A stretch of 57,423 nucleotides of DNA from NCBI GenBank assembly GCA_018333525.1, contig JAGXTF010000076.1, forward strand, positions 1 to 57,423, written 5' to 3'. Shown piece by piece: positions 53,474 through 57,423 of the stretch (positions are counted from its first letter, which is position 1; each line of letters begins with the position of its first letter). The notes beneath the pieces were generated by a model. It did no database searches. It saw only the letters and a program-made list of their open reading frames with translations, and was not told the DNA's origin. Position numbers and translations under genes: made by a program. This DNA is from Bacteroidota bacterium. Its GTDB lineage: Bacteria; Bacteroidota; Bacteroidia; NS11-12g; UBA955.

Positions 53474-55282
53474 ATGCAAATCCGCAACATCGCCATCATA
53501 GCCCACGTAGACCATGGTAAAACCACCCTGGTTGATAAAATGTTACATCAGGCCAGTCTCTTCCGGGAAAACCAGGAAGTTGGGGAGTTAATCCTCGACA
53601 ACAATGATCTGGAGCGAGAACGCGGCATTACCATTTTAGCAAAAAATGTAAGTGTAAACTGGAAAGGAGTAAAAATAAACATTATTGATACCCCCGGTCA
53701 CGCAGATTTTGGTGGTGAAGTGGAACGCGTTTTAAATATGGCGGATGGTGTGTTGTTATTGGTAGATGCGTTTGAAGGTCCTATGCCCCAAACCCGTTTT
53801 GTTTTGCAAAAAGCATTGGGATTGGGTAAAAAAGCCATTGTGGTAATCAATAAAGTAGATAAACCCAATTGCGATCCTGACAAAACCCACGATGATATTT
53901 TCGATTTGTTTTTTAATCTGGGTGCAACAGAAGAACAACTGGATTTTACTACCGTATATGGCAGTGGCAAACATGGTTGGTTTGGCGATGATTGGAAAAA
54001 TCCAACGTCAGACCTTACCTACTTGATGGATACCATTCTCAAAATTGTTCCACCACCTGTGGCTTTGCATGGTACACCACAATTGCAAATCACCTCATTG
54101 GATTACTCCAATTATACCGGACGTATTGCTGTAGGCAGGCTCACACGAGGACATCTGCATGAAAATATGCCGGTAAGTCTGGTAAAACGCGATGGCAAAA
54201 TAGTGAGAACAAGAATTAAGGAATTATTTGTTTTTGATGGTTTGGGAAAAGCCAGAGCTGCGCATGTGGATGCCGGAGATATTTGTGCAATCACCGGATT
54301 AGATAATTTCGAAATTGGAGATACTGTTGCAGATTTTGAAAATCCGGAAGGCATGCCACCGATTTCCATTGACGAGCCAACAATGAGTATGTTGTTTTCC
54401 ATTAACAACTCCCCATTTTTTGGAAAGGAAGGAAAATTCGTAACCAGCCGTCACCTTCGCGACAGGCTGATGAAAGAAACGGAAAAAAATCTCGCGATGC
54501 GCGTGGAAGAAACCGGAAGTGCAGATCAATTTCTGGTATTTGGACGCGGAGTATTGCATCTGGGCATTTTGGTGGAAACCATGCGACGGGAAGGATATGA
54601 AATGCAGGTAGGACAACCTCGCGTAATTATTAAAGAAATTGATGGTGTAAACTGCGAGCCAATAGAAGTTTTAACGGTAGATGTTCCCGAAGTAAGCAGC
54701 GGCAAGGTAATTGAACTCGTAAGCCAGCGCAAAGGCGAAATGCTGAGTATGTTGCCCAAAGGAGATATGGTACGTCTGGAATTTGAAATTCCATCCAGAG
54801 GTCTGATGGGATTGCGCAGCAATATGTTAACAGCTACACAGGGTGAAGCTATTATGGCTCACAGATTAAAAGCCTATGAACCATATAAAGGTGTTATGCC
54901 CGGGCGTATAAACGGTGTAATGATTAGTAAAGAAAAAGGCGCTGCAACGGGGTATAGTATGGACAAACTGAAAGATCGCGGAACTTACTTTATTCATCCG
55001 GGTGTAGAAGTTTATACTGGACAAATTATTGGCGAACATATTAAACCCGGTGATTTGGTGATTAATATTTGCACCGCAAAACAAATGACCAACTTCCGTG
55101 CTGCAGGCAAAGATGACAATACCGTTCTGGCACCTCCGGTTGAATTTACACTGGAAGCTGCGATGGAATATATTCAGGAAGATGAATTCGTGGAAGTAAC
55201 CCCTGAGAGCATTCGTTTGCGCAAAATTTTGCTTGACGAAAACGAAAGAAAACGCGCAGCCAATAAGGCGTTGGCAGTTTAA
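53474..55282 (+). CDS. typA: Translational GTPase TypA/BipA
   Basis: A 602-residue ribosome-binding GTPase involved in stress-dependent 50S assembly and cold/envelope adaptation. [24 protein letters not shown] starts the protein (G1); an in-frame ATG at 53444 would add ten non-conserved residues, so 53474 is preferred. G2 [17 protein letters not shown]3 [17 protein letters not shown]4 [10 protein letters not shown]. The BipA-specific C-terminal part includes [10 protein letters not shown]-like [36 protein letters not shown] and [21 protein letters not shown]. Length is normal (about 600-610). Confidence 0.97.
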
Positions 55283-55293
55283 GATCTCCCTCT

Positions 55294-55635
55294 GCGTTGT
55301 TGGTGGCTTTCAGCCGTATAACAGTTGTTAAGGTATCCCCGAAGTTTTGTACTAAACTTGGCGTTGTTGGTGACTTTCAGCGGTATAACAAAATCTACGA
55401 TTACCAAAGTTGCTGAAATAAACACCAACAACGGGACTCGTCTTCGATTGGCTGTTTGTCTTAAACATCTGACTTCTCACATCGGACATCCCACATACTT
55501 TAAGGCTATGCGTTGTTGGTGGCTTTCAGCCCGATAAACATCAACGCAAATAACCAAAGAAGCTGAAAGCGAACACCAACAACGAGGACTCGTCTTCGAT
55601 TGGCTGTTTGCATTTTACTTCTGACTTCTCACATC
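55294..55635. repeat. Tandem array of inverted-repeat units downstream of typA
   Basis: Three copies of arm A (GCGTTGTTGGTG then G or A, CTTTCAGC) at 55294-55323, 55361-55390 and 55510-55540, and two copies of the inverse arm B (GCTGAAA ... CACCAACAACG) at 55412 and 55562, each followed by the same tail GACTCGTCTTCGATTGGCTG and then GACTTCTCACATC. A2+B1 and A3+B2 form two full units of about 125 bp spaced 149-150 bp apart; A1 is a partial unit. Each unit can fold as a stem of about 20 bp. No gene lies in it. It fills most of the gap between typA and the alpha-2-macroglobulin gene, and may also serve as the typA terminator. Confidence 0.85.
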
Positions 55636-55740
55636 TCCCAACTGTCTCTTCTTTTCCGCACATAATAATTATCCGGCTACGAATAATCATTTGTAAAAAT
55701 TAATAGGTACAGCTGTGTTCAAATTTGAATACCTCAAATT

Positions 55741-57423
55741 ATGAAAACAGCTAGAACAGTAATCTTATTATTTTCCTTACTGGTTATCGTTTTTCTCACT
55801 TGTCGCAATCGTGGACCACGCATTATTAAAGTGGATCCGGCATATTATAAATGGGTTTCCGGTTATACCGGAGGGGTGATTGGCAAACGTGATCCTATTC
55901 GAATAGAACTGGCATCAGATTATAAAGGAAATTCACAAAATAATAATGTAAACCAACACTCAGGTGAAACAGATACTGCTGCCCTCGTAACAGAGAATAC
56001 GCTGCCTGACAGCAACATATTAAAGGAAATATTCACCTTCGAACCGGAGATAAACGGACGTGCACATTGGCTTAACTCCAGGGTAATTGAATTTATTCCA
56101 AATGAAGATTTGGAAAGTGATAAACTGTATACAGTGCTGTTTAAATTACACAGAGTTGCAGATGTTCCTTCGGCGTACAGGCATATGGAATATCAATTTC
56201 GTACCTGGGAAATCCGTTTGCATACCGAGTCGTCCGGATTGGTAAACTACAGCGAATATTCAGCCGAATTTCAATATTTATCAGGTACCATTCAATCCAC
56301 AGATTATTTTGATACCAGCAAATTATCTCAAATCATTTCGGCAAAACAGGATGATAGAAATTTACCCCTTCGCATTGAAAAACAGGATGATAAATTATAC
56401 AAATTCTATTTCGATAGTATCCAAAGATTGGAAAGCCATTCCACCGTTTTTTTGAAATGGAACGGTAAAGTTATTTCTTCCGAATCCAAAGGTGAAATGG
56501 AGTTTGCTGTGCTTCCTCTTGGAGATTTTTCATTGGAAAGTACCAGAATAAAAGATAACGGAGACCAGGAAATAGAATTGCATTTTACAGATCCCATTTT
56601 TCCGGATCAGGAATTTGCCAATTATATAAGCATTGAAGGCTATAAAGATCCATTGACTTTTTCCAGTAATTTAAATGTCATTCATGTTTTTCTGCCAACG
56701 AGGTTGGTAGGAAGTAAAACCATACATATACGCAAAGGATTGAAAAATTTTGCAAGAGTAGGTATGGCTAAAGAACAGGAAACTAAAGAAGAATTTGTAA
56801 AACCAAAGCCTGGCTTGAGAATGAGCGGAAATGGGAATATACTCCCCAATTCCCAGGGTTTGAGAATCCCTGTTGAAAGCATCGGATTGCGCTCAGTAGA
56901 TATACGCGTGATAAAAATATTTGAGAACAACATGCATCAATTTTTGCAGGTTAACGATCTGGATGGGGAGGATGGCATGTCGAGAGTTGGTAAAGTAATA
57001 TTCGAAAAGAAAATAGATCTGGGAATTACAGATTCTGCACAAATGCTGCAGTGGCGAAAAAACATATTGGATTTGAGCAAATTAATTCAAACTGATATTG
57101 GTAGTTTGTACAGGGTAAGTATGCGTTTTCGCGCCTCTTATACCGATTGTGGTTGTGAGCAGGAACACCAGGCAGGATATAACTGGAACGAGGAAGAAGA
57201 GGAAGATGCGAACGATTTTTTAAGTACCAATTCATTTAGGGAAGACATAGATTATGATTCCAGATATTATGGATATGACGAATATTATGATGATAACGGG
57301 GAAAAAGACCCATGCACCAATAATTACTATTATGGTAAAGCAATAAACCGCAACATTCTGGCAAGTGATCTTGGAATTATTTATAAAGGAGATTCAGAAA
57401 AAAAAGGATATGCCTTTGTAAGT
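55741..57423 (+). CDS. Alpha-2-macroglobulin-family lipoprotein (N-terminal part, cut by window edge)
   Basis: The visible 561 codons are the front of a bacterial alpha-2-macroglobulin, a large periplasmic protease trap (whole proteins are usually 1500-1900 residues). Signal MKTARTVILLFSLLVIVFLTC carries a lipobox with Cys 21, so it is inner- or outer-membrane anchored. The MG1-like start is VSGYTGGVIGKRDPIRIELA; further strands include FTFEPEINGRAHWLNSRVIEFIP and LPTRLVGSKTIHIRKGLKNF; the last visible part is NRNILASDLGIIYKGDSEKKGYAFVS, a hallmark of the next macroglobulin domain. An acidic stretch EEEEEDAND and Tyr/Asp-rich insertion (about 480-520) is notable. The bait, thioester and TED lie outside the window. 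Confidence 0.85.
   Translation, partial: MKTARTVILLFSLLVIVFLTCRNRGPRIIKVDPAYYKWVSGYTGGVIGKRDPIRIELASDYKGNSQNNNVNQHSGETDTAALVTENTLPDSNILKEIFTFEPEINGRAHWLNSRVIEFIPNEDLESDKLYTVLFKLHRVADVPSAYRHMEYQFRTWEIRLHTESSGLVNYSEYSAEFQYLSGTIQSTDYFDTSKLSQIISAKQDDRNLPLRIEKQDDKLYKFYFDSIQRLESHSTVFLKWNGKVISSESKGEMEFAVLPLGDFSLESTRIKDNGDQEIELHFTDPIFPDQEFANYISIEGYKDPLTFSSNLNVIHVFLPTRLVGSKTIHIRKGLKNFARVGMAKEQETKEEFVKPKPGLRMSGNGNILPNSQGLRIPVESIGLRSVDIRVIKIFENNMHQFLQVNDLDGEDGMSRVGKVIFEKKIDLGITDSAQMLQWRKNILDLSKLIQTDIGSLYRVSMRFRASYTDCGCEQEHQAGYNWNEEEEEDANDFLSTNSFREDIDYDSRYYGYDEYYDDNGEKDPCTNNYYYGKAINRNILASDLGIIYKGDSEKKGYAFVS

Follow-up and report, generated by a model that had tools for sequence, protein, structure and literature searches.

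The closest described counterparts of the repeats considered here are the REP/RAYT REPtrons, exemplified by the TnpA-REP of E. coli (PDB 4ER8): short sequences that are imperfectly palindromic and leave a bulge unpaired occur in multiple intergenic copies, and related hairpins flank, in outward orientation, a single-copy gene for an HUH-Y1 enzyme. Canonical REPs display a 5′ GT[AG]G foot, and both GTAG and the bulges are recognition features in other groups (PMC8266576). PMC6006769 describes REPs as species-specific in sequence and typically 21-65 nt long, and recognizes a subclass 2.6 of TnpA-REP (RAYT group 5) with the motifs NH[LIV]H, WQ and YIH[QN]NP and a median size of 179 aa. It is also already known from that study that the RAYT genes of Bacteroidetes have “atypical secondary structures” on their flanks, of which further copies occur at other genomic sites; we found no sequence for these structures in it. 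Two further classes bear comparison (PMC3733652): the CGTC-tagged REPs, whose hosts include Bacteroidetes and Chlorobi, and which combine 4-5-nt loops, an unpaired CGTC and CCA tails with the lack of a linked transposase; and the TIRtrons, in which genes for tyrosine transposases (TIRYTs) are flanked by inverted repeats unrelated to the GTAG REPs, some with repeat families of their own, and marked by a GGGGWSAS motif. The available TnpA-REP biochemistry rests on enzymes with GTAG-footed REPs.

In the window, i.e., the entire stretch of 57,423 nucleotides that was analysed, the space between typA and an A2M gene contains a hairpin element twice in full and once in degenerate form; all three copies are on the forward strand, and they start 8 bp past the typA stop codon. 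The element spans about 78 nt and consists of a 20-bp stem with an unpaired (G)AA on its 3′ side and a loop of about 31 nt, followed by a common 25-nt tail. The degenerate first copy (55290..55356), a member of the same direct-repeat family, retains the left arm and the start of the loop (55290-55321), beyond which lie an eroded right arm and a linker. The first full copy (55360..55436; 79.1 bits, E 8e-18 with the covariance model R1 described below) folds as RNA at -29.2 kcal/mol, with a z of -2.8 against shuffled sequence; by the alignment of copies, its left arm lies at 55362..55381 and its right arm, with an unpaired AA ahead of CACC, at 55412..55433, with the GG foot and 25-nt tail at 55434..55458. 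The second full copy (55509..55587; 89.4 bits, E 1e-20; fold z -2.9) has its arms at 55511..55530 and 55562..55584, the latter with a GAA bulge, and its foot and tail (55586..55610) are identical to those of the first. CGTTGTTGGTG has five occurrences in the window, where 0.76 would be expected (as many in none of 100 shuffles), and the 25-nt tail has two, where 0.00 would be.

An earlier note on this DNA had counted three left arms and two right arms, and both counts hold: the former lie at 55290-55321, 55357-55388 and 55506-55537, with 88-91% identity across 32 nt, and the latter display an identical 13-mer, AACACCAACAACG, at 55421 and 55572. The conserved tail that it put at 20 bp does follow both right arms but is longer, with 25 identical nucleotides, and the match between the two tails extends to 50 nt at 90%. 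Its period of about 150 bp applies only to the two full units (149-152 bp); the first arm sits 67 bp upstream and is part of the copy with a degenerate right arm. Its loops of 56 and 22 bases need correction to 30 and 31 nt. As a separate observation, degenerate tracts like ACTTCTGACATCTGACATCCCACATC trail many copies of the element, in the window at 55466-55500 (a degenerate CATCTGACTTCTCACATC-like tract after the first full copy) and 55618-55645, and elsewhere on contigs C73, C76, C111 and C105. About 5 kb past the end of the window (C76:62620-62666) there is a further hairpin, GTTGGTGGTCCTGCGC...CACCAACGACGG, with the outer-arm pattern and a different interior.

The same genome was examined by a DNA search and with the model R1, which was built from 22 copies. 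This gave 39 matches (E<=3.5e-7) that are distributed over about 17 intergenic locations, none of them within a recognized gene. A single array was apparently assembled both as C43 and as C111, and the same may be true of C47 and the start of C73, so that the number of distinct copies is somewhat lower than 39; the assembly is a draft in which some contigs stop within the arrays. The copies mostly form head-to-tail arrays with periods of about 110, 150, 193 and 212 bp, and the first copy of an array often has, as in the window, a decayed right arm (C105, C73, C111, C76 at 81 kb, C42 and C59). Thus, the genome-wide search that the earlier note had advised did uncover more copies, in keeping with its small dispersed element; the lack of further copies that it had named as a refuting case did not arise. 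The folding is conserved as well: compensatory changes were detected at 5 of the 20 stem pairs (17 cells versus 4.2 in shuffles, with none of 500 shuffles as high). Several single copies are adjoined by a tract of the form ~ATTCGTG(AAATTCGTGG)CGATGAAATT (L108, L110, L111, L117).

Beyond this genome the complete element is hardly seen. The full-element pattern had no match among 84,980 species (a scan from which the genome of the window itself is possibly absent) or in viral contigs; with R1, neither 107 other genomes from the order nor 394 from the phylum gave a match at E<=1e-4, and there were only weak matches in 3 of 56 relatives, where the outer arms alone were matched. The wider family becomes visible only with a relaxed outer-arm pattern, GTTGTTGGTG-N(0-30)-CACCAACRACGG, which we ran against the same 84,980 species: among the matches listed, every record titled with a group came from Bacteroidota, Ignavibacteria or Chlorobiota. 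Over these lineages the outer arms (GTTGTTGGTG...AACACCAACAACGG) form a patchily dispersed polar palindrome, present in 7 of 108 genomes of the order and 8 of 395 of the phylum, with up to 66 matches per genome (both strands counted) versus 0-1 in a reversed control; no match was found in plasmids. Its polarity is evident in 24 hairpins drawn from four genomes and picked regardless of their foot: GG directly follows one side in all of them, GGC in 23, and this side is nearly always the one with AACACC. Mispairs in the hairpins, counted for a sign of the recognized strand, comprise 26 A-C against 8 G-T, with 15 of those 26 A-C coming from a single position of one subfamily.

The genes beside these palindromes point to an enzymatic partner. 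The only large cluster among the ORFs adjoining them (80 loci) is a single family of about 172 aa, which NCBIfam names REP-associated tyrosine transposase (RAYT). When the order was searched by protein alone, RAYTs were recovered in 24 genomes, including three genes in that of the window; they are present in 5 of the 7 genomes with the palindrome versus 19 of the 101 without it (p 0.006). Around 26 RAYT loci we counted 34 YGGT hairpins within 400 bp, at 14 of the 26 loci, as opposed to a single one in equal control stretches 600-1000 bp away; where such flanking hairpins carry the GG tag, 14 of 16 are oriented outward from the gene. Moreover, their inner pair, which was not part of the search criteria, is Watson-Crick in 33 of the 34, with four pair types. 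This flanking of RAYT genes by the outer hairpin argues for a single-stranded DNA substrate rather than a structured RNA. RAYTs of other genomes of the order that lack YGGT hairpins often have other palindromes, such as GTTCGTG...CACGAAC and CTGTAGTCTCAGACTACAG (L290, L291, L292; L301, L314).

In the three RAYTs of the genome itself (on C58, C59 and C104) both the HUH motif and the tyrosine are intact. They take the forms NHFH or NHIH and YIHKNP, YIHDNP or YTHNNP, and the three proteins match NCBIfam NF047646 with E-values of 2e-20 to 5e-17, albeit under its curated cut-off of 80 bits. The structure of the C58 protein is predicted with good confidence (pLDDT 88); its best matches in a fold search are IS200-type transposases and, ranking second, TnpA-REP 4ER8, which is also its sole sequence match in the PDB. 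The RAYT family described here resembles subclass 2.6 of PMC6006769 in its phylum, its NHxH and YIHxNP motifs and its size (about 172 aa versus a median of 179 aa); however, its W motif is mostly WE or WK instead of WQ, and so it is no more than a candidate for that subclass.

All three genes are accompanied by hairpins of the YGGT/REP type, and those on C58 link them to the window family. The C58 hairpin, GGGCTTTGGGTGGTCGGTG-GTTTCATC-loop-GATGAAAC-AAGAA-CACCGACCAC-GGGA, is arranged like the window element, from which it differs in the inner stem, and a similar one is found on C104. Common to the C58 hairpins and the window family are the 5′ linker GGGCTTTG, the two-stem layout, GAACACC and GGGA; the C58-type family numbers eight copies in the genome, and those on C14 also have the tail GTCTTCG in common with the window element. 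Nevertheless, only the related C58, C104 and C59 families flank RAYTs: no RAYT gene or remnant was found beside any copy of the window family in the draft assembly. This family's enzyme has therefore been lost, is missing from the draft, or acts in trans and is one of the three RAYTs. The absence weakens the REP assignment but is not decisive, given the draft state of the assembly and published mentions of REPs that lack a linked enzyme. Behind metK (L119:1129-1176) lies a hairpin, GTCGTTGGTC...GACCAACGAC, with the outer stem of those flanking the C59 RAYT. We also considered the five IS200-type Y1 transposases of the genome as partners and rejected them, with no window-family copies nearby; two of their genes are adjoined by CCCTTCGGG palindromic repeats (L121:1965-2180 and L120:766-951).

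The repeats are thus very probably REP-type hairpin elements, forming a lineage-specific, enlarged family of the Bacteroidota RAYTs that would have been copied as single-stranded DNA and then amplified in tandem. The element behaves as a REP, though not as a canonical GTAG REP: the 5′ GT[AG]G foot is absent, and in most copies the hairpin is instead followed immediately on its 3′ side by GG(C/G), which the opposite strand presents as 5′ CC/GCC. There are also an additional inner stem, a loop of about 31 nt and head-to-tail arrays, and at 78 nt the element is longer than the typical REPs of PMC6006769. Many copies begin with (G)CGTC, reminiscent of the CGTC-tagged REPs of PMC3733652; here, however, the CGTC lies within the stem and the loop is far from 4-5 nt, setting the family apart from that class, and the GGGGWSAS motif of the TIRtrons was likewise not seen here. 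Integron attC sites were dropped as a comparison, since their GTTRRRY is not matched by the end motif GTTGGTG.

We propose that the hairpin is recognized as single-stranded DNA by a RAYT through three features: its outer stem (GTYGTTGGTG/CACCAACRAC), the (G)AA left unpaired ahead of CACC, and the GG after the hairpin, which would present a 5′ CC or GCC foot on the other strand; the GCTTTCAGC/GCTGAAAGC stem and the loop would be a lineage-specific enlargement. The HUH-Y1 enzyme would then cleave next to the folded hairpin and insert it elsewhere, mostly between genes, whereupon slippage or recombination could turn single copies into arrays with periods of 110-212 bp. The dispersal, the conserved fold, the code shared with RAYT-flanking hairpins and the three intact RAYT genes are observations, from which cutting, movement, the recognized strand and the RAYT that serves the window family are inferred. 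The copies between typA and the A2M gene might, in addition, influence the end of the typA mRNA.

Alternatively, the repeats could be terminators or stabilizers of mRNA 3′-ends that gene conversion has spread, their association with RAYTs being secondary. The start of the window copies so close behind typA and the C59-type hairpins behind metK would suit this. Yet we consider this account very improbable: no terminator-like site (a G+C-rich stem, short loop and T run) exists in 55200-55800, in line with the earlier note's view that this is not a plain terminator; many copies lie upstream of, or antisense to, both neighboring genes; and the hairpins cluster strongly at RAYT genes.

A structured RNA family, in which every copy would give rise to a transcript serving as a regulatory RNA or sRNA array, and which the earlier note had also entertained, would account for the compensatory stem changes and for several loop positions that are conserved among the copies. 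However, a search of Rfam returned no family above the gathering threshold for the element (the sole match being a tRNA), the element is confined to one lineage, its orientation relative to neighboring genes is mixed, to the point of being antisense to both at C3, C32, C65:4947 and C105:86466, and its outer stem tracks RAYT genes, not any regulated gene class. This interpretation is accordingly very unlikely. A local duplication without the character of an element, or MITEs mobilized by an ordinary DDE transposase, may be dismissed as scarcely credible: arms resembling short terminal inverted repeats and local tandem arrays do exist, but the dispersal of the 39 matches speaks against it, and a RAYT is the better fit for the polarity, with GG nearly always on the side of AACACC, and for the occurrence of an HUH-Y1 enzyme next to related hairpins.

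Returning to the REP interpretation, a broader proposition, which we regard as evenly balanced between true and false, is that Bacteroidota and their neighbors possess a RAYT/REP system with its own code, namely a YGGT/ACCR core stem, a (G)AA left unpaired ahead of CACC and a foot of GG/GCC where other REPs have GTAG, conserved in sequence across a superphylum, and that the window family is an enlarged two-stem descendant of it, which the RAYT of another family may now be moving in trans. Such conservation, if real, would run counter to REPs being species-specific in sequence. In the open-access literature we found no description of this phylum-wide code of YGGT/ACCR stem, unpaired AA and a GG foot, and its novelty is hence provisional. 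The Bacteroidota branch, with its other foot, conserved stem core and unpaired GAA, offers a set of substrates for the choice of strand and cut site by HUH-Y1 enzymes, and the consensus enables annotation of these repeats in Bacteroidota genomes. Five matches to the outer-arm pattern were also seen in viral contigs (L350-L354).
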